Made by a program: the position numbers and the translations under genes. From contig NZ_KB905370.1 in assembly GCF_000378985.1 (NCBI RefSeq), forward strand, positions 5,935,520-5,999,519: a stretch of 64,000 nucleotides of DNA, in the 5' to 3' direction. The DNA is from Ensifer sp. BR816 (GTDB lineage Bacteria > Pseudomonadota > Alphaproteobacteria > Rhizobiales > Rhizobiaceae). Positions 24,391-43,028 of this stretch are shown here, piece after piece; the first letter of the stretch is position 1; each line of letters begins with the position of its first letter. The notes under the pieces were generated by a model. It did not search any database, had not been told where the DNA came from, and saw only the letters and a list, made by a program, of their open reading frames with translations.

Positions 24391-24473
24391 GGTCTTTCCT
24401 TTAAATGTTCAATCAGTCAAGCGGCTAGGCCGTGCTGACTAGGCATATATACACATTGGGAGATCGGCGCTGC

Positions 24474-24640
24474 ACCCCCCTCTGGCCTGCCGGCCATCTC
24501 CCCCGCAAGGGGGGAGATCGACCCGCGGCGAGCCAATCGCTTTAAGGTGCCCCGCGCTCAGAGTGCCTTGATGAGCAAGACGTCGCCACATCCAATCTCC
24601 CCCCTTGCGGGGGAGATGCCCGGCAGGGCAGAGGGGGGTA
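24474..24640. repeat. RIME-like composite palindromic repeat, intergenic copy
   Basis: Two arms (about 24475-24519 and 24595-24639) built from the same C-run/G-run palindrome CTGCCGGCCATCTCCCCCGC..GGGGGGAGAT are placed head to head with about 75 bases between. It lies between fabF1XL and adh within their operon. The same composite occurs twice inside cobN. It matches the look of RIME-type elements of rhizobia. Confidence 0.8.
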
Positions 24641-24668
24641 ACGCACGTGACCATCGCCCTCGCCAGAC

Positions 24669-25952: not shown

Positions 25953-25963
25953 GCCTGGGCTCC

Positions 25964-27163: not shown

Positions 27164-27164
27164 G

Positions 27165-27641: not shown

Positions 27642-27757
27642 GCAGGCCCATCCAATTCGTTTGGGGCTCAAGTAAAAATGCCGATGCCGCCTGTCAAGCG
27701 AAGGACGCTGCAGGCGGCATCGGGAAACGGATGAAACCGTGTCGGCGGAGAGTCAAA

Positions 27758-28036
27758 TCAGGCCTTGGCGGCCCGCAGCTCATCGATCTTCGCACAGAGG
27801 TTCTTCAGCACGAAGTATTCCTCGGTAGACACCTTGCCTTCGTTGACTTCCTGGGTCCACTGCTCGAGCGGAATCTTGATGCCGAATTCCTTGTCGATCG
27901 CAAATACGATGTCGAGGAAGTCCAGGCTGTCGATGCCCAGATCATCGATCGTGTGGCTTTCCGGCTTGATCGTCTCGCGATCGATCTCGCTCGTTTCCGC
28001 AATGATGTCGGCAACCTTATCGAATGTAGCTGTCAC
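27758..28036 (-). CDS. acpXL: Acyl carrier protein AcpXL
   Basis: A 92-residue special acyl carrier protein that carries the very-long-chain acid for lipid A. The phosphopantetheine site is Ser37 in [14 protein letters not shown]. The start is GTG at 28036 ([13 protein letters not shown]), with AAGAGG seven bases ahead; the longer frame upstream is not coding. It is first in the operon acpXL-fabZXL-fabF2XL-fabF1XL-adh-lpxXL and divergent from fnrN. Confidence 0.95.
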
Positions 28037-28263
28037 GCGCTTACCTCTTGAAAATCGAGTCTTGGCGATCCCTATAGAAAAATGCACCGCAAAAGCCAAT
28101 GCCTCCCGGACTTTTGCGACCGAGATTCGGGAAAAGGTGTTGCCAAACGGCGACCGCTACTTTGAGGCGCAGATATGCGCCGGCAATTCGATGACAGAAA
28201 TCCCGACACCCACGACCGCCTTGGCAGCGCGACCGTTGTCGCTGCCACAAAGGATGCTGCTTT

Positions 28264-28277
28264 TTGATCTTGATCAA
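28264..28277. promoter_or_regulatory. Anaerobox 1 upstream of fnrN
   Basis: TTGATCTTGATCAA is a perfect TTGAT-N4-ATCAA site centred about 151 bases before fnrN. With the second site at 28303-28316 it matches the two-anaerobox arrangement known for fnrN of Rhizobium leguminosarum. The rest of the acpXL-fnrN gap (28037-28421) shows no gene. Confidence 0.88.
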
Positions 28278-28302
28278 GTCGCCGCCAGTTAAAGCCGCTA
28301 GA

Positions 28303-28316
28303 TTGACATTCGTCAA
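28303..28316. promoter_or_regulatory. Anaerobox-like site 2 upstream of fnrN
   Basis: TTGACATTCGTCAA is a symmetric TTGAC-N4-GTCAA variant, 39 bases centre to centre from anaerobox 1. In R. leguminosarum a proximal anaerobox gives negative autoregulation of fnrN; the same role is inferred here. Confidence 0.72.
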
Positions 28317-28421
28317 ATCCGCCTGAGACATAGTTTCGCGCTTCGCCAATTGGCGCATGTTGATGCTTGATTTGACCGGAACGTTCCTTTTTGCTCGTGA
28401 CAAACGACAAGGCAGCAAGAG

Positions 28422-29162
28422 ATGCAGATCGTGACCAATTATAGCCGCAAGGACATCCACAATTCGGACATTCCGGTCGTATGCGCCGCCTGTGAAGCGC
28501 GCCATGGCGGCGTCTGCGGAACCTTGACTCCGAGCCAGCTGACCGAACTCAGCCGCCACGCGGCGCGTCGGCGTGTCGAACCGGGCAGCGAGATGATCGG
28601 CCAGGGCGAAGCGGCGAACAATTATGCGAACATCATTCGCGGCGTGGTGAAGCTGAGCAAGATGCTTTCCGACGGCCGCCAGCAGATCGTCGGGCTGCAA
28701 TTCGCCCCCGACTTCATGGGCCGGCCCTTCATGCGCGAGAGCGCTTTGAGCGCGGAAGCGGCGACCGATACCGATGTCTGCGCCTTCCCACGCACCGTCA
28801 TCGAGCGCCTCGTCTCGGAAGCCCCCGGTCTCGAGCACCGGCTGCACGAACAGGCGCTGAAGGAACTGGACGACGCGCGTGACTGGATGCTGACTCTCGG
28901 CCGGAAGACGGCACAGGAGAAGGTCGCAAGCTTCCTCTATCTCATCGCCAGCCATGTCGATCCCGAAAACGGCCCGGCGAAGGAATTCGACCTCCCCTTG
29001 TCGCGCGCCGATATCGCCGACTATCTCGGCCTCACCATCGAAACGGTGAGCCGCCAGATCACCAAGCTGCGCAAGGACGGCGTGATCCGCGTCGAGAACA
29101 GCCGCCGTGTGACCGTGCCGGATAGCCACCGGCTGATGCGCCATGCCGGCATTGATGTCTGA
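28422..29162 (+). CDS. fnrN: FnrN-type oxygen-sensing transcriptional regulator
   Basis: This is a 246-residue CRP/FNR-family regulator. It has the N-terminal cysteines C21, C24 and C32 plus C120, the set that holds the oxygen-labile 4Fe-4S cluster in FNR, so it senses oxygen directly, unlike FixK of S. meliloti. The helix-turn-helix (about 193-216) carries E207, S210 and R211 of the FNR recognition helix, which predicts binding to TTGAT-N4-ATCAA. Such sites lie upstream of fixN, fixG and fnrN itself in this window. The ATG at 28422 is supported by AAGAG just ahead. It is convergent with the GDPD gene. Confidence 0.93.
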   Translation: MQIVTNYSRKDIHNSDIPVVCAACEARHGGVCGTLTPSQLTELSRHAARRRVEPGSEMIGQGEAANNYANIIRGVVKLSKMLSDGRQQIVGLQFAPDFMGRPFMRESALSAEAATDTDVCAFPRTVIERLVSEAPGLEHRLHEQALKELDDARDWMLTLGRKTAQEKVASFLYLIASHVDPENGPAKEFDLPLSRADIADYLGLTIETVSRQITKLRKDGVIRVENSRRVTVPDSHRLMRHAGIDV

Positions 29163-29169
29163 CCGGCTT

Positions 29170-29928
29170 TCAGGACGATCCGAAATGTTTCGCTGCGAGA
29201 CGCGGATCGTCCAGGAGGATGGCGTCAGGTCCTATCCGGTGCAGGTGCTCAAGGCCCTCTTCGTCGATAATGCCAACCGGATACGGCGGGTATTCTGGCA
29301 GCGGAACTGAGCGCGGCTGACCGGCCATGACTGCGAGATGCAGGCCGACGTGGCGAACGATCGCCGCGCTTTCAAGGCTCGCTGCGCCCTGCCATAGCCT
29401 GAACCAGTCGGCACCGGCATCCCGCGCCTGAGCGGAGGACTCCGGCTCCTCCAGGAAAGCAAGGATCGCGATATCCTTTCTGACAGCGCGTGCTGCAGCT
29501 ATGAGGCCTAAGCTGCGCAGCCCCAGCATGATCCGCCCGGTCGCATGCGCGGCGACGACCTCGTCGATGATGCGCACGAGCTGCGCGGGGTCGGCAATTT
29601 TTATATCCAGGAGCACGCCCAACGAACCGGAGGTGGCCAGCGCCTCGTGGAGCGTCATCGTCGCCGGCAGAACCTGCCGCAGCGTTGCGAATTCGATATC
29701 CGAAACGCGGCGTGAATCACCGCAGAGCCGTCGAAGGTCCTCATCGTGTATGCAAACGAGGGCACCGTCCTTCGTAAGGCGAATGTCCGTCTCGATGGCA
29801 TCTGCCCCGGCGCCGGCGGCGGCACGTAGTGCCTCGACGCTGTTCTCGCCAGCAAGGGCAGCGCCGCCGCGGTGCGCGATGATGAGGGGCTTGCGCCCGA
29901 AGCGACCGATCCAGAAATCAGAGGGCAT
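29170..29928 (-). CDS. Glycerophosphodiester phosphodiesterase
   Basis: This 252-residue GDPD-family enzyme hydrolyses glycerophosphodiesters to glycerol 3-phosphate and an alcohol. The catalytic HRGG (residues 19-22), GENS, AIETDIRLTKDGALVCIHD and the later LLDIKI metal ligands are all present. There is no signal peptide, so it acts in the cytoplasm. It follows cobD by 22 bases on the same strand and may be read from the cob operon, although it has no known role in B12 synthesis. Confidence 0.92.
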   Translation of the reverse strand: MPSDFWIGRFGRKPLIIAHRGGAALAGENSVEALRAAAGAGADAIETDIRLTKDGALVCIHDEDLRRLCGDSRRVSDIEFATLRQVLPATMTLHEALATSGSLGVLLDIKIADPAQLVRIIDEVVAAHATGRIMLGLRSLGLIAAARAVRKDIAILAFLEEPESSAQARDAGADWFRLWQGAASLESAAIVRHVGLHLAVMAGQPRSVPLPEYPPYPVGIIDEEGLEHLHRIGPDAILLDDPRLAAKHFGSS

Positions 29929-29950
29929 CGTCTTCTTCGGCAGTTGGTTC

Positions 29951-30934
29951 CTAGAAAAGCAGGAATGGCAGGATCAGAACGGCGGAGGCCAGAGCGAGCG
30001 CGGTGCAGGCGCGATAGAAGACGGCGACGGCCGCGTCGATGTCGTCTGCCGTCGCGACGGACCGACCGGAGCCGTTGATCATCGGCTCCTCCACCGTGAC
30101 GCCGCCATAGACGCGCGGCCCGGCAAGTTGGATATCGAGCGCACCCGCCATCGCGGCCTCGGGCCAGCCGGAATTGGGCGAACGGTGGAAGCCATGGTCG
30201 CGCTTTGCCACCTCGACGGCAGCCTTCGCCGCCTCGGCGCCGCGCTTGAAATGGGCCCCGGCGGCAATGAGGAAAACCGAAAGCCGCGCGGCTGGAAGGT
30301 TGGTAAGGTCGTCGAGCCGCGCCGAGGCCCAGCCGAAATGGAGATACTTCGGGCTCTTATGGCCGATCATCGAATCGGCCGTGTTCAGCATCTTGTAGGC
30401 AAAGAGGCCCGGAAGCCCGGCAATCGCATACCAGAGCGCGGGCGCGACGACGCCATCGGAAAAGTTCTCGGCTAGGCTCTCGATCGCCGCGCGGCAGACG
30501 CCGGGCTCATCAAGCGTTTTCGGATCGCGGCCGACGATCATCGACACGGCCTCGCGGCCACCCGCAAGGCCATCGCTGCGCAATCCGTCCGCGACCCGGA
30601 GAACGTGATCGCCGAGGCTCTTCTGCGCGAGGAAGACGGCAACGGTCATTGCCTCGAGGATAAAGCCAATTGCGCCGAGAACATCGAACAGGCGATTGAG
30701 CACCACACCGAGCAGGATGCTCGCCGCGAGAAGGATGAGGATGGTCGCAACGCCGCGCATCTTCAACCAACCGCCGCCGCTCCCGCCGCGATTGAGTGCC
30801 TCGTCGAAGACGCCGATCGCCTTGCCGAAGAGCACCACCGGGTGCGTGAGCCGATCCCAGAGCCAGTCGGGATCGCCGACGAGGCGATCGATGAGCAGGG
30901 CGACAACGAGGATGAGGAATATTTCGGCCGACAT
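29951..30934 (-). CDS. cobD: Adenosylcobinamide-phosphate synthase CobD (CbiB)
   Basis: This 327-residue inner-membrane protein condenses adenosylcobyric acid with aminopropanol or its phosphate to make adenosylcobinamide. Family marks are an N-terminal helix and DRLVGDPDWLWDRLTHPVV, then ESLAENFSDGVVAPALWY and the AYKMLNTADSMIGHK motif; several transmembrane helices are evident. The start codon abuts the cobC stop. It is the last cob gene of this block. Confidence 0.95.
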   Translation of the reverse strand: MSAEIFLILVVALLIDRLVGDPDWLWDRLTHPVVLFGKAIGVFDEALNRGGSGGGWLKMRGVATILILLAASILLGVVLNRLFDVLGAIGFILEAMTVAVFLAQKSLGDHVLRVADGLRSDGLAGGREAVSMIVGRDPKTLDEPGVCRAAIESLAENFSDGVVAPALWYAIAGLPGLFAYKMLNTADSMIGHKSPKYLHFGWASARLDDLTNLPAARLSVFLIAAGAHFKRGAEAAKAAVEVAKRDHGFHRSPNSGWPEAAMAGALDIQLAGPRVYGGVTVEEPMINGSGRSVATADDIDAAVAVFYRACTALALASAVLILPFLLF

Positions 30935-31936
30935 CTACACTCCTGCTCTGCGCAAGGCTTCGGCAAGGCGGCGGTCGCCGGCGGCGTCCGCCGCCAGCCC
31001 GATCCGCAGCCAGCGCCGATCATAGTCGAACTTGCGCGTCAGAATGCGCTCCCGGCAGAGCGCCGTATGGAAATCGTATGCTCGTTCGTGTTCGACGAGC
31101 GCGAAAAGGCCGGTCCCGCCGACAACACTGAGCCCGGCACCGCGAAGGACCACATCAAGCGCCGTCTTCCGTTCCTGGATGAGACCCCTGATCGCGTTCG
31201 TGTCGCTTTCCATCAGCTTCGCCGAAACGGCGAGCGCCGGGCCCGACACCGCCCAAGGGCCGAGCCATTCGCGGAGAGATTCCGTGACCGCCCCGCTTGC
31301 AACCACGAAGCCAAGCCTCAGGCCCGCAAGGCCGAAGTATTTGCCGAAGGAGCGAAAGACGACAAGGTTGTCCTGCGCAGCGACGTGCGGGGCAACGCTT
31401 GCCTCCGGCTCGAGATCACCGAAGGCTTCGTCGACGACGAGCAGGCCGCCATGCGCCTTCATCGCCGCGGCCATGGCCAGGACTTCGTCCGGCGCGAAAA
31501 GCCGGCCGGTCGGGTTGTTGGGATTTACGACAACCGCAATGCCATGCGCCGCCGCCAGATCATCGGCACGCGCGACGGGATCGACGTCGAAACCTGCCGC
31601 CTTCAGGACGCGCGCATATTCGCCATAGGTCGGTCCGAATATGGCAGCGCGCCGTTTCGCGTCGGCAAGCCGCGGCAGCAACTGAATCGCGGCCTGGGTT
31701 CCGGGCACCGGCAATGGCATGATTTCGCCGCTCCTGTAGTAACCACATGCCGCCGCCCGCACTGCGTCCTCCAAGTGCCGATCCGGCAAGCGATGCCAGG
31801 CCCGCGCGTCGATTTCCGGCAGCGCGACCGGGCACGGGTTGATGCCAGTCGAAAGATCGAGCCAATCATCGGGCGCACCGCCGAAACGGGCCGCAGCCTC
31901 GGTGATTCCGCCGCCATGGATGATCGGCGCGGTCAT
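30935..31936 (-). CDS. cobC: CobC, PLP-dependent aminotransferase-fold protein of cobinamide synthesis
   Basis: This 333-residue class I/II aminotransferase-fold protein is the CobC/CobD type that works with CobD in making or attaching the aminopropanol arm of cobinamide. It shows VNPNNPTGR, VVDEAFGDLEPE and FRSFGKYFGLAGLRLGFV, with the PLP lysine in SFGKYF. I place the start at ATG 31936 (MTAPIIHGGG), two bases after the cobB stop; the long frame upstream is inside cobB. Confidence 0.93.
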   Translation of the reverse strand: MTAPIIHGGGITEAAARFGGAPDDWLDLSTGINPCPVALPEIDARAWHRLPDRHLEDAVRAAACGYYRSGEIMPLPVPGTQAAIQLLPRLADAKRRAAIFGPTYGEYARVLKAAGFDVDPVARADDLAAAHGIAVVVNPNNPTGRLFAPDEVLAMAAAMKAHGGLLVVDEAFGDLEPEASVAPHVAAQDNLVVFRSFGKYFGLAGLRLGFVVASGAVTESLREWLGPWAVSGPALAVSAKLMESDTNAIRGLIQERKTALDVVLRGAGLSVVGGTGLFALVEHERAYDFHTALCRERILTRKFDYDRRWLRIGLAADAAGDRRLAEALRRAGV

Positions 31937-31938
31937 CG

Positions 31939-33234
31939 TCACGCCGAAAGGTCGATGAGATGCATGAAGGAGCCGGCAACATTCCGTCGGCGGAGACCGG
32001 CGCGGCCGAGGTCGACGCCAGCCGCATCCTCTACGGCGAAGAGCGGCTCGGCCGCCCCTTCGGAAACGATGGTCGAATAATGAAATTCGTGCGCGGTCAT
32101 CGATCCCTCGAAAAACCCGTTGTCGATCGGCGTAACGCGCCGGTAACCGAGATGCCGCTTGCGCTCCGCGAAACTGGTGACGAGCGGCAAAAGGCCAAGC
32201 ATCTCGTAACGTCTGCCGTCCGCCGCGACAAGCCCTTCGCCGAGCGCCATGTAGCCGCCGCACTCCCCGAAGATGCGTACGGCCCGCCCGGCCGCGGCCT
32301 GCATTGCAGCCCGGAAATTTGAAGCGCTGGCGAGCAGTTCGGCATGCAACTCCGGATAACCGCCCGGCAGATAGATCGCATCGGAGGCGGCATCGGGCAC
32401 CTGGTCATCCAGCGGTGAAAAGAACGAAATCTCCGCTCCCTGCCCGCGCCAACCGGACAGCAGATGCTCGTAGCTGAAGGCGAAGGCGACGTCGCGAGCC
32501 ACCGCGATTCGCTGTCCGAGCGGCCTCAGCGCCCTGGCTTCCGACGGCGAACCCGTAAGCAACGGAGATGCCATGGCGACGATGGCATCGACATCACAGC
32601 CCGATGCGACGCGCATTGCCGCGTGGTCGATGAAGGCTTCGAGCGTGCCGTGCTCGCCGGCCTGGACGAGACCCAGATGCCGTTCCGGCAGTTTTAAAGC
32701 GCCATCCTGGCGCAGCACGCCGAAAATCGGGACGGCCGCCCGGTCGAGCGCGTCGCGCAGCATCGCCTCATGGCGGTCGCTGCCCACACGGTTCAGTATG
32801 ACGCCGGCGACGCGCACATCGTCGCGATGATCCATATAGCCGCGGACGAGTGCCGCGACCGAATGCGACAGTCGGGCGCAATCGACGACCAGGACGACCG
32901 CGAGCCCGAGCGTCGCGGCCAGATCCGCCGGCGATCCCGTGCCATCCGCTGCGCCGTCATAGAGACCCATCATCGCCTCGATGATGAGCGTGGAGCCGTC
33001 TTTCGTCACGGCCGCGGCGTTGGCGAGCAACAATTCCGGCCGCATCGCCCAGGGATCATAGTTGAGACAGGGCTTGCCGCTCGCGGCCGTGTGGAAAGCC
33101 GGATCGATATAGTCCGGGCCAGCCTTTCCTGGCGCAATGGAGAAGCCGCGCCGCGCCAGCGCCCGCAGAAGGCCGAGCGTCACCGTCGTCTTGCCCGAGC
33201 CGGAACTCGGGGCGGCAATCATCAGACCACTCAT
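31939..33234 (-). CDS. cobB: Hydrogenobyrinic acid a,c-diamide synthase CobB
   Basis: This 431-residue glutamine amidotransferase amidates the a and c side chains of hydrogenobyrinic acid with ATP. The P-loop PSSGSGKTT is near the start, followed by GPDYIDPAFH, and the C-terminal triad-type glutaminase domain has GECGGYMALGEGL. The ATG at 33234 overlaps the cobA stop (ATGA); an upstream ATG at 33249 is also open. The first cob amidation is thus coupled to CobA synthesis. Confidence 0.95.
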   Translation of the reverse strand: MSGLMIAAPSSGSGKTTVTLGLLRALARRGFSIAPGKAGPDYIDPAFHTAASGKPCLNYDPWAMRPELLLANAAAVTKDGSTLIIEAMMGLYDGAADGTGSPADLAATLGLAVVLVVDCARLSHSVAALVRGYMDHRDDVRVAGVILNRVGSDRHEAMLRDALDRAAVPIFGVLRQDGALKLPERHLGLVQAGEHGTLEAFIDHAAMRVASGCDVDAIVAMASPLLTGSPSEARALRPLGQRIAVARDVAFAFSYEHLLSGWRGQGAEISFFSPLDDQVPDAASDAIYLPGGYPELHAELLASASNFRAAMQAAAGRAVRIFGECGGYMALGEGLVAADGRRYEMLGLLPLVTSFAERKRHLGYRRVTPIDNGFFEGSMTAHEFHYSTIVSEGAAEPLFAVEDAAGVDLGRAGLRRRNVAGSFMHLIDLSA

Positions 33235-34073
33235 GCCGGGTTCCGGCATATGCGGCTCGAGAACGGGTCGGCGGCAAGTACACGGCCATTGAGCGCGCCC
33301 AGCCAGTCGAGCGACGGACGCAGCCGGACCACTTCCCCGACGACGACGATTGCCGGCGGCTCCAGCCCCGAAGCCGTCACGTCGGCCTCGGCGCGGGAAA
33401 GCGTGGTCTCGAGGACCACCTGCTCCGGCGTCGCCGCGTTGCAGACGAAGGCGACCGGCTCGTCAGCCGAACGGCCGGCGGCGATGAGGTTCGCCGAAAT
33501 CTGAGCGATATGCTTCATCGCCATATACATGACGATGACCGGCGACCCCTTGGCGATGCCTTCCCAGTTGATCCGGTCCGGCACGACGCCCGAGGAATCG
33601 TGGCCGGTGAGGAAGGTGACCGCGTGATTGACCTCACGGTGCGTCACCGGAATGCCGGCATAGGCAAGCCCGCCAATGCCCGCCGTGATGCCAGGAACGA
33701 TACGGAACGGGATACCGTGCTCGACGAGTGTCAAGGCTTCCTCGCCGCCGCGGCCGAAGACAAAGGGATCGCCGCCCTTGAGGCGTAGTACCCTGAGCCC
33801 GGCGCGTGCGTGTTCCACGAGGCGGAGCGAGATGTCGCGCTGTTTCGGCGACGGCTTGCCGCCGCGTTTGCCGGCAAATTCGAGCGTCGCGCCCGGCTTG
33901 GCGAGCTTCAGGCAATCGGCATTCACCAACGCATCATGGACGATCACATCTGCCTGGCGGAGCGCATTGGCGGCATGAAGCGTCAACAGACCCGGATCGC
34001 CCGGGCCGGCACCAACGAGCCAGACGGATCCGGGATTGAGTTCGGGCAGGCCCGCGAAAAGCGTGTCCGTCAT
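33231..34073 (-). CDS. cobA: Uroporphyrinogen-III C-methyltransferase CobA
   Basis: This 280-residue SAM-dependent enzyme makes precorrin-2 from uroporphyrinogen III, the branch point to B12 and siroheme. The SUMT marks are VGAGPGDPGLLTL near the N-terminus, the RLKGGDPFVFGRGGEEA motif, VPGITAGIGG and VIVMYMAMKH. It lacks the CysG oxidase/chelatase part, as is normal for CobA. It lies downstream of cobE with a 112-base gap. Confidence 0.96.
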   Translation of the reverse strand: MTDTLFAGLPELNPGSVWLVGAGPGDPGLLTLHAANALRQADVIVHDALVNADCLKLAKPGATLEFAGKRGGKPSPKQRDISLRLVEHARAGLRVLRLKGGDPFVFGRGGEEALTLVEHGIPFRIVPGITAGIGGLAYAGIPVTHREVNHAVTFLTGHDSSGVVPDRINWEGIAKGSPVIVMYMAMKHIAQISANLIAAGRSADEPVAFVCNAATPEQVVLETTLSRAEADVTASGLEPPAIVVVGEVVRLRPSLDWLGALNGRVLAADPFSSRICRNPA

Positions 34074-34185
34074 GGCGTGTTACTCCGGGCCCTGCAAAAT
34101 ATCCGAGATGATTCTCTATTGTAGGAAACGATGGCAGAACATTGAATCTGCTGAAAAGATACGTCGCTGGCCGGCGCCCAAGACA

Positions 34186-34638
34186 TCAGAAGGCCTCCGA
34201 CGCGCCTGGAACCTGGGCGTCGCCATCGGGCCGCGGTCCCGCGATCGCGGCTGTAGCATGGGCCGAGCGGATTTTCGGAACGAGCAGGATCGCTTCCGGT
34301 CCCGCCCCTGCCAGTGCCGCGCCCTCGGCGACGCCATGGCAGCCCGTATGGGCAAAGACGATGTCCGACGGATTTTGCAGTCGCGCGGATTCCGCCGCGA
34401 GGGTTGCCGCGTCAAAGAAGCGCACGGGTACGGAAAAATGCCGGCCGGCCGCATGAATTGCGAGCTCCTCGGCGCGCACGTCGAGCGAAGCGACGAAGTT
34501 GACATCGCTCGCGGATGCGCCGGCATCGGCGAGCGCCCGCTCGGCCAGCGCGATCACTTCCTCTGGCGCGGTGTTTCGCTCGCAGCCGAGGCCGAGAACA
34601 AGTTTGGCGATTGGATCTGGCCCTTGGACCGAAGGCAT
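34186..34638 (-). CDS. cobE: CobE/CbiG C-terminal family protein
   Basis: A 150-residue protein of the CobE (CbiG C-terminal) family. It shows LVLGLGCERNTAPEEVIALA at the start, a VNFVASLDVRAEE middle and HTGCHGVAEGAALAGAG. It takes part in B12 ring synthesis, but its exact role is not settled. The start is ATG at 34638. It seems to be the first gene of the cobE-cobA-cobB-cobC-cobD block. Confidence 0.88.
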   Translation of the reverse strand: MPSVQGPDPIAKLVLGLGCERNTAPEEVIALAERALADAGASASDVNFVASLDVRAEELAIHAAGRHFSVPVRFFDAATLAAESARLQNPSDIVFAHTGCHGVAEGAALAGAGPEAILLVPKIRSAHATAAIAGPRPDGDAQVPGASEAF

Positions 34639-35151
34639 CTGCAGTGCGGCTCCCCTGCAGCAGGCCCCCATCCCCCTGGACGCACAGGCTGCTGCTCATT
34701 GACATCTGCGTGGTGGCCCAAACCTGCAAGTGTTGGGTCCGCGCAGCGGTCGGCGTTCCATACGAAGCGCCGGCCCGGGCGTGCAGCCGTACCGGTTCGG
34801 ACAGCACCGGGTCTGGCCCCCTGAAGGGGTCGGCCGCACCGGACGCTCTTTCGATCCGCTCGCACGGACGCCGTCGCATGATCGTCATTTCTACCGAAGG
34901 GCATCCGGGCGGTCAAACCGGATTGCGCCATCGCCACGTCGTAAACGGCGCAGTCGGCATGGCGCAAAAGGGAGGCTTCACCCGTCCCTCACGCTACGTT
35001 CATGAAAAAGCGGGCGCCGCAGCGGACGACGGCAACGCGCTTGCCGGGCAAGAACAGCATTTTCTGCGGAAGTTGCCGGCGACAAGCCTTTGCTTTTCGT
35101 GCTCGGCTCTGACACAAGGCAGCAGCAATTCCATTCCGCCTCGAGCCTACC
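34639..35151. other. 513-bp gap between cobE and the TSUP permease gene, no gene called
   Basis: Open frames here are fragmentary on both strands and resemble no family. I looked on the minus strand for a cobalamin riboswitch (AGGAGACC box, CCGCAACTGT-like core) and did not find it. The stretch must hold the promoter for the cobE block and that for the permease gene; some decayed coding sequence is possible. Confidence 0.5.
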
Positions 35152-35937
35152 GTGATCGACCTCGCCCTCCATCTATTGCTCTTTCTGTTCGTGGCCGCCT
35201 TCATCGCCGGCTTCATCGATTCGATCGCCGGCGGTGGTGGGATGATCACCATCCCCGCCATGCTGATCGCCGGCATTCCGCCGCTCGAAACGCTCGGGAC
35301 CAACAAGCTGCAATCGCTCTTCGGCTCCGGTTCCGCCAGCATCGCCTATGCGCGACACGGGCACGTGAATCTGAAGGAGCAGTTGCCGATGGCGCTGATG
35401 TCGGCCGCGGGCTCGGTGCTCGGCGCCTTGATCGCGACGGTCGTTCCCGCCGATGCACTCAAGGGCGTGCTGCCCTTCCTGCTGATCGCGATCGCCGTCT
35501 ATTTCGGCTGCAAGCCGAATATCGGCGACGTCGAAAAGCATCGCCGCATGTCGGCATTCCTCTTCACCCTCACCTTCGTGCCGCTGATCGGCCTCTACGA
35601 CGGCGTTTTCGGACCAGGAACGGGCTCCTTCTTCATGCTCGGCTTCGTCTCGCTCGCCGGCTACGGAATCCTCAAGGCGACCGCCCACACGAAGTTCCTG
35701 AACTTCGGCTCCAATCTCGGTGCCTTCATCGTCTTCGTTCTCTACGGTGTCGTGCTCTGGAAGGTGGGGCTGATAATGGGTGCCGGTCAATTTCTCGGTG
35801 CGCAGGTCGGCTCCCGCTACGCCATGGCGAAGGGCGCGAAGATCATCAAGCCGTTGCTCGTCATCGTCTCGATCGCGTTGGCGATCCGGCTGCTGGCGGA
35901 CCCGACGCATCCTCTGAGGGTCTGGCTCGCGATGTGA
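35152..35937 (+). CDS. TSUP-family (TauE/SafE) membrane permease
   Basis: This 261-residue inner-membrane protein has about eight hydrophobic helices. The TSUP marks are FIAGFIDSIAGGGGMITIPA near the N-terminus, ETLGTNKLQSLFGS, and the repeat of the same design later (GLYDGVFGPGTGSFFMLGF, TAHTKFLNFGSNLGAF). The family moves sulfur-containing anions, but some members are linked to cobalt uptake near B12 genes, so an ion for cobalamin synthesis is possible from context only. The start is GTG. Confidence 0.9.
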   Translation: MIDLALHLLLFLFVAAFIAGFIDSIAGGGGMITIPAMLIAGIPPLETLGTNKLQSLFGSGSASIAYARHGHVNLKEQLPMALMSAAGSVLGALIATVVPADALKGVLPFLLIAIAVYFGCKPNIGDVEKHRRMSAFLFTLTFVPLIGLYDGVFGPGTGSFFMLGFVSLAGYGILKATAHTKFLNFGSNLGAFIVFVLYGVVLWKVGLIMGAGQFLGAQVGSRYAMAKGAKIIKPLLVIVSIALAIRLLADPTHPLRVWLAM

Positions 35938-36114
35938 GACCCGGTGCTCGCGCCTCGTCGTGATGCCACCGGCTTGCAAGTGCGGATATGCAACAAGCAA
36001 CCGTACAGTCCGTCCGTCCCCCTGCTAGTCTATCCGCACCGATCCGTCGGTCGACGCTGGCGTGTTTACCAATCCGGCAACAAAAATCGGCAGGCTCGTA
36101 ATAGGCCCTTGAAC

Positions 36115-36129
36115 CTCTAGTTACTAGAG
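36115..36129. promoter_or_regulatory. MerR-type palindrome upstream of the ICMT-like gene
   Basis: CTCTAG-TTA-CTAGAG is a perfect 6+6 palindrome with a 3-base centre. A TTGAAC hexamer ends directly before it. This geometry is like promoters of MerR-family metal regulators, which sit between -35 and -10, but no clear -10 is visible and no merR gene lies here. Confidence 0.45.
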
Positions 36130-36211
36130 ATTGCAACTTGGCTCCGCTGTCCCACATGCGGCGTTTGAAGAAGCGCCGCCAACCCGTGTCGTCCGACGAC
36201 GAGGAGCCCTG

Positions 36212-36805
36212 ATGTTCACGACGATTCCCGCAATCCTGATGCTGGTTGTCGGCGCCTTCACACTGGCGCTGTCGGTCCATCGCCGCCTTCAGACGGGGCG
36301 GTCCCCTGTTGTCCTGACCTACGGCGACGATGCCGAAGGCTTCGGCGGCCGCCTTTTTCGCATCATCGTCGCCGCACTCGTCGCGCATCTGCTCGCCGCG
36401 GCGATCGTTCCCGCCGGCGTCGATGCCGTCGTCGGGCGGATTCCGGCGCTCGATCGGCCGCCGCTCGCCTGGCTCGGGCTCGCTTTGATGGCGCTCGGCG
36501 GCGTGCTGACGATGCTGTCGCAGTGGTCGATGCGCGATTCCTGGAAGATCGGCATACCGGAGGCGCAGGATGCCCCGCTCGTCACCTCCGGCCTTTATGC
36601 CTTTTCCCGCAACCCGATCTATGTCGGCATGGTGGCGGCGCTGATCGGCACGATGCTTGCTGTCCCGAACGTCGTTTCGGCGGCGCTGGCCCTCTCCGCC
36701 TGGATCTCGATTTCCTACCAGATCCGCATGGAGGAAAGCCATCTCTTCGGCGCCTTCGGCGAGACCTACCGCGCCTATTGCCAACGTGTGAGGCGCTGGA
36801 TTTGA
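36212..36805 (+). CDS. Isoprenylcysteine carboxyl methyltransferase-family membrane protein
   Basis: This 197-residue integral membrane protein has four or five helices. The conserved C-terminal block of the ICMT/PEMT family is seen in [14 protein letters not shown] and [23 protein letters not shown], the SAM-binding part. The substrate in bacteria is unknown. I choose the ATG at 36212 with GAGGAG eight bases ahead; the frame upstream is not coding. It stands alone, convergent with cobO, and is preceded by a MerR-like palindrome. Confidence 0.85.
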
Positions 36806-36861
36806 CGCACTCGCCAGAGAAAACGGGTGCGCAGTCAAGCCCAATCACCGCCGAAGGCTCG

Positions 36862-37506
36862 TCAAAACTCGACGCCCTTCTGCCCCTTGATGCCGGAGCG
36901 GAACGGGTGCTTGATGAGTTCCATCTCGGTCACCAGATCGGCAATCTCTATGAGATCTTCCTTGGCATTGCGACCGGTCAGGACCACATGCGTCATGTGC
37001 GGCTTCTCTTCCTTGAGGAAGCGCACGACCTCGGCGATGTCGATATAGTCGTAGCGCAGCGCGATGTTGATCTCGTCGAGCAGCACCATGGAATTGCGCT
37101 CGTCGCGGATCAGTTCCTTGGCCTTCTCCCAGGCCTTCTCGGCCATCGCCACGTCGCGGGCGCGGTCCTGGGTCTCCCAGGTGAAGCCTTCGCCAAGCGT
37201 GTAGAACTGGCAGAGGTCGCCGAAATGCTTGTCGATCAGATCGCGCTCGCCGGTCTGCATGGCCCCCTTGATGAACTGCACGACGGCACAGGGCATGCCA
37301 TGGGCGATGTGGCGGAAGATCATCCCGAAGCCGGCGGTCGACTTGCCCTTGCCCTTGCCCGTATGGACGATGATCAGACCCTTCTCGTCGGTCTTCGTCG
37401 CCATGATCTTGTCGCGCGCCGTCTTCTTTTTCGCCATCTTCATGGCGTGACGGGCTTCGTCCTTTTCGGGTACCGGTTCGCCGGTGTTGGCGGTTTCGTC
37501 GCTCAT
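36862..37506 (-). CDS. cobO: Cob(I)yrinic acid a,c-diamide adenosyltransferase CobO
   Basis: This 214-residue CobA/CobO/BtuR-family ATP:corrinoid adenosyltransferase attaches the upper adenosyl ligand. It has a P-loop HTGKGKGKSTAGFG near residue 48, FIKGAMQTGERDLI and MVLLDEINIALRYDYI. The N-terminal 35 residues are a lysine-rich extension. It follows cobN by 11 bases and ends the cobP-cobW-cobN-cobO operon. Confidence 0.96.
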   Translation of the reverse strand: MSDETANTGEPVPEKDEARHAMKMAKKKTARDKIMATKTDEKGLIIVHTGKGKGKSTAGFGMIFRHIAHGMPCAVVQFIKGAMQTGERDLIDKHFGDLCQFYTLGEGFTWETQDRARDVAMAEKAWEKAKELIRDERNSMVLLDEINIALRYDYIDIAEVVRFLKEEKPHMTHVVLTGRNAKEDLIEIADLVTEMELIKHPFRSGIKGQKGVEF

Positions 37507-37517
37507 CGCATTCCTCC

Positions 37518-40500
37518 CTATTCGTTCCCGGCGTACAGGCGTTCGCGCGCCGCACGGCCGGACAGGCTGTTCAGTTCAAATCGCGCCGAATTGGAGCGCG
37601 GGTTCCAGAGACCTCGGTCAATCGCCTCGAGGAAGCGCTCGGACAGTTCCGCCAGGGCCGCCGGGTTCTTGTCGCGCAGGAAATCGAGGACTTTCTCGTC
37701 GGCGATAAAGGCTTGGTAGGCCGCCTCGAAATGATGGTCGCGCACGGCACCGGTCGTCGCGGCGAAGGCGAACATGTAATCGACAGTCGCGGCAATCTCG
37801 AAGGCGCCCTTGTAACCGTGGCGCATCACGCCATCGATCCATTTCGGATTGACGACGCGGGCGCGCACCACGCGGCCGATCTCCTCCTCCAGCGAGCGGA
37901 TCACCGGCTTCTCAGGGCGGGAGTGATCATTGTGGTAGATCGCCGGGCGTTTCCCTCCGATGTGCTCTGCGGCGGCGCTCATACCACCTTCGAACTGGTA
38001 ATAGTCGTCGCTGTCGAGCAGGTCGTGCTCGCGGTTGTCCTGGTTCTGGACGACGGCTTCAATCGTCCGCAGGCGTTCCTCGAAAAGTCCGCGCTCCGCC
38101 CTGACGTCTTCACCGGCGCCATAGGCATAGCCGCCCCAGGTGAGATAGGCTTCGGCGAGATCGCCGCGCTTTTCCCAGCCTTTTTCGTCGATCAGCGCCT
38201 GCAGGCCCGCGCCATAGGCGCCCGGCTTGGCACCGAACACGCGATAGGAGGCGCGTCTTGCCGCTTCCTTCGCCTCGACGCCCTTTTCCTCGAGGCGTCG
38301 CGCTTCGGCATGCATCCGGGCGGCGATCATGTTGTCGGCATCGTCCTCCTCCAGCGCGCCCATCGCGCGGACAGCCTTGTCGAAGAGGGCGATCTGCTCC
38401 GGGAAGGCGTCGCGGAAGAAGCCGGAAATCCTGAGCGTGACATCGACGCGCGGGCGACCGAGCACGGCGAGCGGCACGATCTCGTAGCCGGTCACCCGCC
38501 GCGACGCCATGTCCCAGATCGGCTTGGCACCGATCAGCGCCAGCGCCTGTGCAATGTCGTCGCCGCCGGTGCGCATGTTGGAGGTGCCCCAGGCGGTGAG
38601 CCCGAAAGAGGACGGCCATTCGCCATGGTCCTGCAGGTAGCGCCGGATCAGCAACTCGGCCGATTTCTTGCCGAGCTCGTAGGCCGCCGGCGTCGGTACG
38701 GCGCGGCTGTCGACGGAATAGAAATTGCGCCCCGTCGGCAGCACGTCCGGACGGCCGCGCGTCGGCGCGCCGGAAGGACCGGGCGCGACGAAGCGGCCAT
38801 CGAGACCGGTGAGCAGGCCGGTGATTTCGGCTGCGCCGGAGTTCTGGATCGAGGGCTTCAGCCGGGCATCGATCTCGTCGAGGACGGCTTGCGTGTTGGA
38901 CCAGCCGTCTGGGCAAGCGATCTCGCCCGACACCAGTTTGGTGGCGAGAAGTTCGATGCGCTCGACCGTATCGCCCGCAGTGCGCCAGGGGGCATCCGAG
39001 AGCTTGGTGAGGAGATCGGGCTTCTGACCGCCCCAGGGCGCGGAGAAAACGCAGTCGAGGGGGTCGAAGGGTGGCGGGTGCGGAAGCGTACCCCCCTCTG
39101 CCCTGCCGGGCATCTTCCCCACAAGGGGGGAGATTGGCGAGTGGCCACGGCTTCCCTCCGAGGTTCCGTTGCCCCCATCATCGGCCAAAAGGCTCGCCCC
39201 GAGCTCGCCAGCCTCTGTAGAGCGAGCGGCCGCATCCCTGATCTCCCCCCTTGTGGGGGAGATGTCCGGCAGGACAGAGGGGGGTATTGGCGACCCACCA
39301 AGCCCCAGGTCCACCGCGATCGCGCGCTGCAAACTCTGATCGCCGCCCTCGCCCAAGCCACGCGGCACCCGGGCGAGCGCCACCGTTAGGTCGGTCAGCA
39401 GCCGCCCCTCCGGCGCCACGCCGAAGATGTGCAGCCCGTCGCGGATCTGCATTTCTTTGAGGTCGCAGAGATAGGCGTCGAGCTTTTCGAGCGCCTTGTC
39501 GTCGCTGTCGCCCTTTTCGATGCCGGCGTCTCGGTCGAGCCCGATATCGCGCACGAGGTCGAGGATCTGACGACTGAGCAGCCGCAGCCGCCGCGGATCG
39601 CCGCCGGCTGCCTCATAATATTCGTCGACCAGCGCTTCAAGGTCCTTGAGCGGCCCGTAGGACTCGGCCCGCGTCAAGGGCGGCGTCAGGTGGTCGATGA
39701 TCACGGCGCTGGTGCGACGCTTGGCCTGCGTCCCCTCGCCCGGGTCGTTGACGATAAAGGGATAAAGATGCGGCGTCGGGCCGAAGATCGCCTCGGGATA
39801 GCAGGTTTCGGAAAGCGCCAGCGCCTTGCCGGGCAGCCATTCGAGATTGCCGTGCTTGCCCATATGGATGATCGCGTCAGCGCCGAAGATTTGGCGCAGA
39901 TAGGCATAGAAGGCGAGATAGCCGTGCGGCGGGACGAGATCCGGCGCGTGATAGGTTTCCTTCGGATCGATGTTGTAGCCGCGCGCCGGCTGGATGCCGA
40001 CGATGACCTCGCCGAACCGGGCAAGCGGCAGCGCGAAGGCGCCGTCGAGGAAGAAGGGATCGGACTCCGGCGCACCCCAGCGCGCGCCCACCTCCTCCTG
40101 AATCTTTCCAGGAAGAGAGGCGAAGAAGTCCTTGTAGTGATTCAAGGAAATGGTTTCGCGGATTTCCCGGTCGCGGCTTGCGGCATTCGTCGGTCCGGCG
40201 ATCAGGAAGCGGATCAGCGCATCGCCGTCCGCGGGCAGATCGCCAACCGGATAACCTTCCGCCGCCATCGCCTTCAGCACCTCGATGGTGCCGGCGGGTG
40301 TATCGAGGCCGACGCCGTTGCCGAGACGCCCGTCGCGGTTCGGGTAGTTCGCCATGACGATGGCGATGCGGCGCGCCTCCGGCCTCGCCCGGCGCAGCCT
40401 TGCCCAATTGGCGGCGAGCCGGGCGGCAAAGCGAACGCGGTCGGAGAGGGGCTCATGGCCGACGATGTTTGCCTCCACGAGCGGGTCGTAGACGGATGCC

Positions 40501-41738
40501 GCCTTGAAGGAGACGGCGCGCGAAAGGATGCGTCCGTCCACCTCCGGCAAAGCGACATTCATGCCGAGGTCGCGCGCCATCAGCCCTTGCGGCGAGGCCT
40601 GCCATGCTTCGCGCGAAGAACCTGAAAAGATGACCTGAAGCACCGGCGCATCGGTCGATTCCAGCACTGTCGGCTGCCGGTCGGCGCCGGGTGCCGAGAC
40701 GGCAAAACCGGTGGCGTTCATCACCACGTCCGGCGCGGCCTCGGCGAAGATCGCCTCGAGCGTTCCGATCGAAACCTGATCCTTGAGGCTCGAAACGAAG
40801 ACGGGAAGCGCGCGGATCCCTTCTTCGGCGAGCGCCTCGATCAGGGCTTCGACGGGCTTGGTCTCGCCGCTCTGGACGAGGGCCCGGTAGAAGCAGATGG
40901 CGACGGTCGGGGTCTGGTGCACGTCAGGGTGGCTACCCCCCTCTGCCCTGCCGGGCATCTCCCCCGCAAGGGGGGAGATCGGCAAGCTGATGCTGTTTCC
41001 CGCCAAATTCGCACCGGCATCGGCGCGAGCGCCCGTCCCGGTCGGATTCGCCTCCATCTCTGCCGTCGGCGAGGAGCGAACGCTCGCCTCCCTATTCTCC
41101 CCCCTTGTGGGGGAGATGCCCGGCAGGGCAGAGGGGGGTGTTTCCTCGCTGCCTCCGGCGATACGCACCCACTCGTCAACCCCGATCACGCCCCTGCCCG
41201 GCCACCATAGGCCGGCCTTGAGCAGCGGCCGCGCCGGTTGCGGCTTTTCGGCGCCATCGATCAGCGCCTCGGCATAGTCGAGGAACAAGCCGGCATTGTC
41301 CGCGCCGCCCTCGGTGAAATAGGCCCAGAGACGCCGCCGGTCTTCCGGCGCAACGGTCGAGAAAGGCTCGAGGCCGGGGTCGGGCTTGTCGTCCCCCGGC
41401 AGCACCGCGATCCGGAACTTGCCCGCAACGGCGGCGGCATAGAGCGCCTCCAGCACGTAGCGAAAATAGCTGGCGCCGCCGAGCGGCCGGACGACGATCA
41501 GCTTCGCATGCCGCGCCGTGCGTTCGACATAGGTGTCGACAGACATCGGGTGCATGAGGCTCATCAGGCTGGCAATGCGCAGGCTTTTCCCACCGACGCG
41601 CGACCGATTGGCGGCGGCGATCGAGGCAAGCTCCGTATCGGCGGCCGACAGGAACAGGATATCGGCCGGGCTTTGGCCGAGATCGATCGCCTCGTTGCCG
41701 TCGGCGATTGTGCCTTTCTGGGCTAGGAGGAGATGCAT
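37518..41738 (-). CDS. cobN: Cobaltochelatase subunit CobN, with two repeat insertions
   Basis: CobN is the large subunit that inserts cobalt into hydrogenobyrinic acid a,c-diamide with ATP, together with CobS and CobT. The whole CobN/BchH-type protein is present, with GRLGNGVGLDTPAG, HMGKHGNLEWLPGK, LTAWGTSNMRTGGDD and a normal C-terminus. At 1406 residues from the ATG at 41738 (GAGGAG upstream) it is longer than the roughly 1275 usual. The excess is two in-frame RIME-like palindromic repeats at about residues 200-269 and 818-884, both translated as PSALPGISPTRGE-like and ISPLAGEMPGRAEGG-like peptides. They appear to fall in loops between conserved blocks. Confidence 0.95.
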   Translation of the reverse strand: MHLLLAQKGTIADGNEAIDLGQSPADILFLSAADTELASIAAANRSRVGGKSLRIASLMSLMHPMSVDTYVERTARHAKLIVVRPLGGASYFRYVLEALYAAAVAGKFRIAVLPGDDKPDPGLEPFSTVAPEDRRRLWAYFTEGGADNAGLFLDYAEALIDGAEKPQPARPLLKAGLWWPGRGVIGVDEWVRIAGGSEETPPSALPGISPTRGENREASVRSSPTAEMEANPTGTGARADAGANLAGNSISLPISPLAGEMPGRAEGGSHPDVHQTPTVAICFYRALVQSGETKPVEALIEALAEEGIRALPVFVSSLKDQVSIGTLEAIFAEAAPDVVMNATGFAVSAPGADRQPTVLESTDAPVLQVIFSGSSREAWQASPQGLMARDLGMNVALPEVDGRILSRAVSFKAASVYDPLVEANIVGHEPLSDRVRFAARLAANWARLRRARPEARRIAIVMANYPNRDGRLGNGVGLDTPAGTIEVLKAMAAEGYPVGDLPADGDALIRFLIAGPTNAASRDREIRETISLNHYKDFFASLPGKIQEEVGARWGAPESDPFFLDGAFALPLARFGEVIVGIQPARGYNIDPKETYHAPDLVPPHGYLAFYAYLRQIFGADAIIHMGKHGNLEWLPGKALALSETCYPEAIFGPTPHLYPFIVNDPGEGTQAKRRTSAVIIDHLTPPLTRAESYGPLKDLEALVDEYYEAAGGDPRRLRLLSRQILDLVRDIGLDRDAGIEKGDSDDKALEKLDAYLCDLKEMQIRDGLHIFGVAPEGRLLTDLTVALARVPRGLGEGGDQSLQRAIAVDLGLGGSPIPPSVLPDISPTRGEIRDAAARSTEAGELGASLLADDGGNGTSEGSRGHSPISPLVGKMPGRAEGGTLPHPPPFDPLDCVFSAPWGGQKPDLLTKLSDAPWRTAGDTVERIELLATKLVSGEIACPDGWSNTQAVLDEIDARLKPSIQNSGAAEITGLLTGLDGRFVAPGPSGAPTRGRPDVLPTGRNFYSVDSRAVPTPAAYELGKKSAELLIRRYLQDHGEWPSSFGLTAWGTSNMRTGGDDIAQALALIGAKPIWDMASRRVTGYEIVPLAVLGRPRVDVTLRISGFFRDAFPEQIALFDKAVRAMGALEEDDADNMIAARMHAEARRLEEKGVEAKEAARRASYRVFGAKPGAYGAGLQALIDEKGWEKRGDLAEAYLTWGGYAYGAGEDVRAERGLFEERLRTIEAVVQNQDNREHDLLDSDDYYQFEGGMSAAAEHIGGKRPAIYHNDHSRPEKPVIRSLEEEIGRVVRARVVNPKWIDGVMRHGYKGAFEIAATVDYMFAFAATTGAVRDHHFEAAYQAFIADEKVLDFLRDKNPAALAELSERFLEAIDRGLWNPRSNSARFELNSLSGRAARERLYAGNE
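39089..39286. repeat. RIME-like composite palindrome inside cobN, copy B
   Basis: Two head-to-head arms (about 39090-39134 and 39241-39285), each CCCCCTCTGnCCTGCCGGnC..-type with a G-run/C-run hairpin, enclose about 105 bases. The total of 198 bp is a multiple of three and is open in the cobN frame. It lies between AVDLGLGG and FDPLDCVFSAPW, which are adjacent in normal CobN as I know it. Confidence 0.9.
40934..41140. repeat. RIME-like composite palindrome inside cobN, copy A
   Basis: A head-to-head arm pair (about 40936-40980 and 41095-41139), highly similar to the copies at 24474-24640 and 39089-39286. It is 207 bp, a multiple of three, and open in the cobN frame. It sits just before PTVAICFYRALVQSGETKP, where a CobN domain begins. 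Confidence 0.9.
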
Positions 41739-41766
41739 GGTTGCTCCTCGTGGCGCTTGCGAAAAG

Positions 41767-41938
41767 ACCCCTCCCCAGCCCCTCCCCACACGGGGGAGGG
41801 GTTAGGTCGTGCCACACGCACTCTTTCCCCGAGTATCAGCCGTTCGTGCCATAACACCGCGCCCCTTTGGGAACGGAAGCGTCGCGGCAAACGCGAGAGA
41901 AGCCCCTCCCGCTGGTGGGGAGGGGTTGGGGAGGGGTA
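41767..41938. repeat. Second family of inverted C-rich/G-rich repeats between cobW and cobN
   Basis: Arms ACCCCTCCCCAGCCCCTCCC.. (from 41767) and its close inverted copy ending at 41938 flank about 95 bases. Each arm is itself palindromic (CCCCTCCC..GGGAGGGG). It resembles common rhizobial intergenic repeats and differs from the CTGCCGG-type repeats in cobN. It lies within the cobP-W-N-O transcript. Confidence 0.75.
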
Positions 41939-41963
41939 ACTCTCGTACGGCTTCACATTCACC

Positions 41964-43028
41964 TCACGCCAGCGCCGAAATCGCCGCGCGCACGGCCGCC
42001 TCGTCCATGTCGTGCAGCCCGATGACGACGAGCCGCGTGCCGCGCGTCTCGCCGGGGGCCCAGGCGCGGTCGTAATATTGATCGACCCGGCTGCCTACCG
42101 CCTGGATCAGGAGACGCATCGGCTTGCCGGGTACGTCGGCGAAGCCCTTCAGCCGCAGCACGTCATGCTCGGCGATGACAGCCTTGAGGCGGTCGACGAA
42201 GACGGCCGGCTCGGCGATCGGGCCGAGTTCGACGACGAAGCTGTCGAACTCGTCGTGATCATGTTCCTCGCCGGCCTCATGCTCCATCTCGTGATGCGAT
42301 TTGCGGTCGCCGATCTCGTCCTCTGTGCCGACGCCGAGCCCGAGCAGGATTGCGGCGGCCACCTCGCCGTTCTTCGCCTCGATCATCGCCGGCTTGCGGC
42401 TGATGCGCGAGGCGACCTCTTCGCGCACGGACTTGAGGCCGGCGGCATCGATGAGATCGGTCTTGTTGAGAACGATGAGGTCGGCGGCCGTGAGCTGGTC
42501 CTCGAAGAGCTCTTCGAGCGGGCTCTCATGGTCGAGGTTGTCGTCATTGACGCGCAGCGCATCGACCTTGTCGTGATCGTCGGCAAAGCGGCCGGCGGCA
42601 ACGGCGGCGCTGTCGACGACGGTGACGACGCCATCGACAGTCACTTCGCTGCGAATGTCCGGCCAGTTGAACGCGGCGACCAGCGGCTGCGGCAGGGCAA
42701 GGCCGGAGGTCTCGATAACGATATGGTCCGGACGGTTCTCGCGTTCGAGCAGCTTCGTCATGGTCGGAATGAAGTCGTCAGCGACGGTGCAGCAGATGCA
42801 ACCGTTGGTAAGCTCGATGATGTCCTCCTCCGAGCAGGCCTCAGCGCCGCAGCCCTTCAGCACGTCGCCATCGACGCCGAGATCGCCGAATTCGTTGATG
42901 ATCAGCGCGATCCGCTTGCCGTCGGCATTCTGCAGCAGGTTGCGGATCATCGTCGTCTTGCCGGCGCCGAGGAAGCCGGTGATGACAGTGGCGGGGATCT
43001 TGCCCGGATGGGCCTTTGCAAGCGTCAT
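41964..43028 (-). CDS. cobW: CobW GTPase, cobalamin biosynthesis
   Basis: A 354-residue G3E-family P-loop GTPase and metallochaperone, thought to supply cobalt to CobN. It has the P-loop GFLGAGKTT near residue 18, the metal-binding CICC motif in NGCICCTV, the base-recognition NKTD, and a histidine-rich acidic stretch (HHEMEHEAGEEHDHDE) for metal binding. It lies three bases downstream of cobP and upstream of cobN behind the B12 riboswitch. Confidence 0.95.
   Translation of the reverse strand: MTLAKAHPGKIPATVITGFLGAGKTTMIRNLLQNADGKRIALIINEFGDLGVDGDVLKGCGAEACSEEDIIELTNGCICCTVADDFIPTMTKLLERENRPDHIVIETSGLALPQPLVAAFNWPDIRSEVTVDGVVTVVDSAAVAAGRFADDHDKVDALRVNDDNLDHESPLEELFEDQLTAADLIVLNKTDLIDAAGLKSVREEVASRISRKPAMIEAKNGEVAAAILLGLGVGTEDEIGDRKSHHEMEHEAGEEHDHDEFDSFVVELGPIAEPAVFVDRLKAVIAEHDVLRLKGFADVPGKPMRLLIQAVGSRVDQYYDRAWAPGETRGTRLVVIGLHDMDEAAVRAAISALA

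Follow-up and report, generated by a model that had tools for sequence, protein, structure and literature searches.

Palindromic elements that sit within open reading frames are best known from the small, reduced genomes of Rickettsia and Wolbachia and from hairworm mitochondria. Intragenic invertons, the subject of Chanin et al. 2024 (Nature), are reportedly inverted repeats inside a gene whose middle occurs in both orientations, so that the protein is changed. Rhizobia carry Rhizobium-specific intergenic mosaic elements (RIME), which are composite palindromic repeats. A study of R. japonica (PMC3767692) reports Rickettsia palindromic elements (RPEs) within the penicillin-binding protein 1C gene, the gene for a DNA helicase, and those for two aminoacyl-tRNA synthetases, and a 2019 paper describes the reported cases of coding palindromes as few (PMC6649704). 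Three further papers (PMC2229807, PMC10969869, PMC5896051) note that proteins can gain residues through in-frame fusion with small non-autonomous repeats such as ERIC, QMITE, and other bacterial MITEs.

We analyzed a 64,000-nucleotide stretch of the Ensifer sp. BR816 genome (the window), in which two copies of a palindromic element lie in frame within cobN. As with intragenic invertons, the repeats are inside a gene and flank a middle that occurs both ways with an altered predicted protein; here, the orientation differs between species (with a mixed picture among assemblies of few contigs), and the unit is a dispersed repeat. The resemblance to RIME lies in the composite palindromic structure and the rhizobial host. 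Like the Rickettsia and Wolbachia elements, this one is a palindromic repeat dispersed through intergenic DNA and, in frame, through conserved genes, and for cobN we found orthologues from which it is absent. The hosts are also shared in kind, since penicillin-binding protein 1C, a PcrA-like helicase, and GlyS carry the element. It differs from RPEs in occurring in another clade, in being longer, and in having two arms around a middle found inverted in place, a feature that the consulted passages of PMC3767692 do not mention for RPEs. The shared trait with ERIC, QMITE, and other MITEs is that small repeats add residues to proteins, whereas here neither a target-site duplication nor a transposase was found, and the right-arm frame of the gene-internal copies was uniform in our survey.

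Among the matches listed in our search of the open-licence literature, none reports coding palindromes in rhizobia, and none, in the portions available, reports in-place inversion of a coding palindrome. The latter, between sister species, is the new part of this work. We consider it very probable that, taken as a whole, the data reflect a dispersed palindromic element that inserts at many places, is filtered for frame within genes, drifts nearly neutrally, and has a middle that flips in place.

Results and Discussion

The preliminary description of this DNA had reported a CobN of 1406 residues with two in-frame inverted-repeat inserts of 198 and 207 bp and a third, intergenic copy at 24474-24640. 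An inverted-repeat search recovered all three copies, the last with its start at 24473 (Table 1). The cobN product matches the TIGR02257 profile with 1785.9 bits, well over the cut-off. The arms of insert 1 encode PPSALPGISPTRGE (left) and ISPLAGEMPGRAEGG (right), and those of insert 2 encode PPSVLPDISPTRGE and ISPLVGKMPGRAEGG. The element is a dispersed palindromic repeat of the Rhizobiaceae, with two inverted arms of ~45 bp around a variable middle.

Table 1. Features of the window and gene-internal copies of the element in the surveyed genomes
Feature	Position in window	Strand	Basis
cobN, cobaltochelatase subunit CobN, 1406 aa from ATG, host gene of both inserts	37518..41738	minus	HMM match
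Insert 1, CobN residues 200-269, 207 bp	40934..41140	minus	inverted-repeat search
Insert 1, first arm in reading direction	41096..41139	minus	98% complementary to other arm
Insert 1, second arm in reading direction	40935..40978	minus	98% complementary to other arm
Insert 2, CobN residues 818-884, 198 bp	39089..39286	minus	inverted-repeat search
Insert 2, first arm in reading direction	39241..39286	minus	93% complementary to other arm
Insert 2, second arm in reading direction	39089..39134	minus	93% complementary to other arm
Third copy of the same element, intergenic	24473..24640	none	inverted-repeat search
Palindromic repeat of a second family, immediately upstream of cobN	41767..41937	none	inverted-repeat search
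Own-genome gene-internal copies: cobN site 1, cobN site 2, uvrB, ftsY			survey
G104 gene-internal copies: ABC transporter ATPase, glyS, third cobN site, cobG, molybdopterin oxidoreductase			survey
G111 gene-internal copy: cobG			survey
G177 gene-internal copies: PcrA/UvrD-like helicase, third cobN site			survey

A 29-base arm pattern allowing up to 3 mismatches matched the genome 76 times, whereas its reversed control gave 0 matches. When 2 mismatches were allowed in the arm core, 71 of the family's 151 genomes (counting the own genome) contained it, representing 56 of 109 genera, and the control pattern occurred in 0. At up to 1 mismatch, the arm was present in the own genome and in 0 of 384 other genomes sampled from the class. 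Among plasmid annotations, 35 records matched; the one examined has a single annotated feature, and none within the stretches inspected. Rfam at gathering thresholds gave no match in window positions 24000-42500, and no PDB chain matched the inserted peptide.

Insertion into CobN

CobN sequences from 33 genomes of the genus were aligned and then scored by alignment column. An insert was present at site 1 in 16 and absent in 17; at site 2, 16 carried it, 15 did not, and 2 retained a remnant. The scoring counts short scars (G002 at site 1; G003 and G004 at site 2) as absence, and these alleles retain just the arm ends, as would be left by an in-frame deletion. CobN proteins of the genus without a full insert, a few with short scars, measure 1264-1287 aa, which agrees with 1406 minus 135. 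The solved CobN chain 9uk9_A (1263 aa) aligns without either segment; only ~12 residues stand at its site 1, and 2 residues at its site 2. On a tree built from the other columns, presence changed at least 8 times at site 1 and at least 9 times at site 2, gains and losses pooled. The earlier proposal of in-frame insertion between conserved blocks is thus supported by both alignment and column scoring, and the contrary outcome, in which every orthologue carries both segments, was not seen. By this comparison, we interpret the two CobN segments as insertions.

Across the family, 79 of 80 CobN loci were scored (L071, read on the wrong strand, was left out here and counted as lacking inserts in the 113-row column-scoring totals; L080 is partial). 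At least 20 extra residues were present at site 1 in 65 of the 79 loci and at site 2 in 66, and the inverted repeat was stronger than 20 shuffles in 54 of the 65 and 62 of the 66. Such a wide distribution, together with the in-frame scars showing that loss does happen, could mean that the segments are old parts of CobN, already there when the family arose and since lost repeatedly, instead of being inserted again and again. We consider this unlikely, as the insert DNA is a multicopy palindrome present elsewhere in the genome, several other repeat families occupy the same two points, and 9uk9_A has neither segment. There may also have been an old first insertion, with copies exchanged later. 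Repeated insertion remains our preferred reading. The other families, which we named by eye, recur as the peptides PSPTPPHKGEG...LWGGVGEG, RGEGARRADEG, GQMRGA...HLLPAGEKG, and GEMSAKPTEGG...SPPQGGR, and on these by-eye assignments the two CobN sites are shared by several kinds of repeat.

Two individual cases illustrate the histories of single copies. The site 2 inserts of G010 and G026 differ by a pS of 0.064, compared with 0.294 in the other columns, as if this insert were of more recent origin than cobN itself or had passed from one of the two species to the other. The inserts at sites 1 and 2 of L031 encode very similar peptides, as if one site had been copied to the other.

A predicted structure of CobN residues 1-1200, built from 41 sequences, was of mediocre quality (mean pLDDT 61.8, pTM 0.48). 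Both inserts were modeled without secondary structure at pLDDT 26-32, with site 1 between a helix and a strand and site 2 between two helices. The model hints at unstructured loops, weakly, because 433 of its residues in all fall under pLDDT 50.

Codon Phase of Gene-Internal Copies

Frame usage was examined with a frame-independent survey of 185 elements, which a search with the DNA pattern had located in six genomes (G000, 41; G081, 16; G104, 55; G138, 29; G111, 22; G177, 22). Thirty loci each were taken from G081 (302 matches), G138 (52), G111 (65), and G177 (62), and 30 loci plus 20 stretches from the 87 matches of G104. Copies were called gene-internal if both flanks had coding base composition and the frame ran through. 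Fourteen rows qualified, two of which, antisense to ftsY, were dropped to leave 12 (Table 1); G081 and G138 contributed zero among their 16 and 29 surveyed elements. FtsY, UvrB, GlyS, CobN, and CobG passed NCBIfam cut-offs, and the PcrA/UvrD-like helicase and ABC ATPase passed those of Pfam. The molybdopterin oxidoreductase also passed Pfam cut-offs, its likeness to assimilatory nitrate reductase falling below those of NCBIfam. In several of the host genes other than cobN, the HMM match is broken by the insert. These copies and the presence or absence of the CobN inserts bear out the earlier suggestion of a likeness to the Rickettsia coding palindromes. The element appears to work as those elements do, by analogy of behavior and not of compared sequences.

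The right arm was in a single codon phase in all 12 gene-internal copies, giving peptides that resemble ISPLVGEMPGRAEGG with some substitutions. The left arm likewise kept to one phase in 7 of 8, the exception being the molybdopterin oxidoreductase (L285). As a control, we read in both orientations 128 paired elements that do not belong to the gene-internal set (n = 256 readings). Open readings numbered 116, 128, and 117 for the three left-arm phases and 102, 125, and 134 for the right-arm phases, pooled over genomes that differ in their counts. Since the pooled phases are similarly open, stops do not explain the uniform frame, which by our own arithmetic would arise by chance ~5 times in 100,000 (ten sites taken as independent, each with a chance of 134/361). 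The other two arm frames contain Cys, Trp, or His, making a filter on the peptide the likeliest cause, as we infer it.

Across the parsed copies in cobN and pbpC, the arms were phase-compatible in 35 of 35, compared with 16 of 42 other copies. The 35 represent three sites, are in many cases orthologous and hence non-independent, and exclude 3 of 38 coding copies that could not be parsed; the 42 are a mixed set, in which the third copy as found in related genomes and one copy in ftsY stand beside intergenic copies of the own genome. The pbpC insert has the same frame in seven genomes, with the start codon assumed to lie upstream of it. It failed the flank test of the survey and was found by protein search, and for that reason is not an unbiased case.

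Several copies have individual features. In the own genome, the acidic N-terminal region of FtsY (L210) has two occurrences of the right-arm peptide, and the C-terminal tail of UvrB (L199) has one. L272 and L366, from two other genera of the family, share a third CobN insertion site before an FPFRAA stretch. A right-arm-like peptide precedes a left-arm-like one, with a short gap between them, in L265 (glyS) and L359 (PcrA-like helicase), and the same swapped order occurs at CobN site 2 in L072-L074.

Inversion of the Middle

Comparing the middles of orthologous inserts revealed pairs that match as reverse complements. Within the genus, whole elements of G023 and G024 agreed at 187 of 223 positions (83.9%) reversed and 79.8% forward, and those of G007 and G008 at 180 of 219 (82.2%) reversed and 78.4% forward. 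The forward values derive from the arms; the middles alone scored 149 and 131, relative to shuffle maxima of 33 and 28. The best pair, L018 and L032 at site 1 in the Rhizobium leguminosarum group, matched at 141 of 152 positions (92.8%) reversed and 71.2% forward, with the other cobN columns 89.0% identical. L020 and L046, from the same group and site, gave 90.1% reversed and 78.0% forward, and a second group contributed L022/L027 (86.6% and 74.3%) and L075/L076 (85.0% and 74.7%). All eight site 1 inserts of these four between-species pairs are open in the cobN frame. Other-column trees call for a minimum of 3 changes of orientation in each of the two groups, which comprise 9 and 6 species. 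All four resolved sister pairs with both inserts oriented (L020/L024, L053/L077, L022/L027, L075/L076) differ in orientation, and the two orientable inserts (L032, L046) of the unresolved trio L032, L046, and L056 agree. The intergenic third copy is likewise inverted in L395 relative to L396 and L397, which assigns the flipping to the element and not to the gene.

These alignments indicate a middle inverted in place between sister species and open both ways, which would yield two unrelated peptides. Because the arms stay fixed in a flip and just the middle is turned, the reading frame downstream does not shift; computationally flipped, 26 of 35 coding copies stay open and 9 meet a stop. Possibly, a separate insertion in the other orientation, instead of a flip in place, produced some or all of these differences. 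A bolder version of in-place flipping, which strikes us as doubtful, is that the element forms a genome-wide family of invertible coding cassettes that flip in growing Rhizobiaceae populations, such that CobN and other proteins would exist as two isoforms with unrelated peptides. This would amount to recombinase-free phase variation by a selfish repeat, concentrated in hot-spot loops that several repeat families have in common.

Inverted arms could also have misled short-read assemblers, and draft assemblies are common in the set. In 8 of 11 measured inserts, the arms form a perfect inverted repeat over 32-35 bases, and in one more over 23 bases. Nevertheless, we think it improbable that the inversions are artefacts of assembly across the arms, as L022/L027 are still inverted though their arms, which have 13-14 mismatches in 45, match exactly for just 7 bases. 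Opposite orientations also separate some genomes of 3-7 contigs. In genomes of at most 7 contigs, the reversed alignment scored better in 10 of the 31 listed pairs, in some of them narrowly, and at site 2 the signs for G007, G016, and G023 do not fit two simple states.

Drift of the Inserted Peptide

The inserts have a pN/pS of 0.92 at site 1 (15 genomes, 105 pairs) and 0.96 at site 2 (16 genomes, 120 pairs), while the other CobN columns give 0.11; these are uncorrected proportions pooled over pairs with shared ancestry. By this measure, the inserted peptide seems to drift almost neutrally. The arms differ between species by a mean of 2.4 to 3.7 per 42 bases, far below the synonymous sites of the gene (pS ~0.41), suggesting homogenization of the arms at the DNA level.

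The preliminary description had proposed selected open reading in the cobN orientation. The part concerning frame holds, as frame is strongly non-random; the peptide itself is near neutral, and the middle occurs in both orientations. The selection visible in these sequences would filter copies by frame, by stops, and probably by peptide make-up, and would not act on a conserved peptide. That selection instead favored the inserted peptides for some role in CobN, for example in complex assembly or in regulation, has in its favor that a single frame is used for the arm peptide, that many species carry the inserts, and that third-codon-position changes in the arms (42 of 134 in cobN copies, 71 of 270 in others) differ slightly in the direction of constraint. 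We give this idea little credence given the pN/pS across the inserts, the unrelated middle peptides of inverted alleles, and the occurrence of the same arms in unrelated proteins.

Proposed Course of Events

We propose that copies of the element insert at many places by means of some mobilizer. Survival in a gene would require a frame-keeping length, no stop, a permissive loop, and arms in the one frame giving a Cys-, Trp-, and His-free peptide (PPSALPGISPTRGE...ISPLVGEMPGRAEGG). The encoded peptide, presumably translated with its host, is probably unstructured. After insertion, it would drift almost neutrally while the arms stay alike at the DNA level, and copies could shrink to short scars. 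Recombination between the inverted arms would flip the middle in place and, with the arm frame unchanged, the gene could stay open with a different peptide.

Rhizobia are large-genomed, free-living, and tractable, placing the gain of residues by selfish DNA in conserved proteins within engineerable organisms. In-place inversion, if true, provides a simple route from one insertion to two peptides. The sites hit by several repeat families would serve as a natural map of loops tolerating extra residues.

Relation to Other Repeats of Rhizobia

The inserts had initially been called RIME-like. For comparison, we used the chvI-exoS spacer, which we take to be a RIME locus from the title of Osteras 1995, picked by eye by its genes next to hprK. 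In L419 (minus strand), this presumed spacer contains two copies of a different palindromic repeat, perhaps the true RIME, of which by-eye inspection of the corresponding spacer in three other genomes showed no copy. The arm of our element was absent from the 6.5-kb stretches of four genomes around the presumed spacer, and the stretch with the different repeat had no match to it within 6 mismatches of 25. Identity with the repeat of that locus was therefore rejected, and the name is unsupported. That the inserts are known RIME elements of Rhizobium, which share the clade, a similar size, and composite palindromes, is thus very improbable, on a comparison by locus and not with RIME sequences themselves.

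A 901-base query around the third copy aligned as a single piece in 9 of 33 genus genomes, and in an alignment of this site from 30 genomes the boundaries were too diverged to resolve a target-site duplication. The Y1 (RAYT) transposase was rejected as mobilizer, as PF01797 does not track the element: it occurs in 5 of 12 genomes rich in the element and in 2 of 13 that have none. The second palindromic repeat just upstream of cobN resembles, by eye, the PSPTPPHKGEG family found at CobN site 2 in other Rhizobiaceae.
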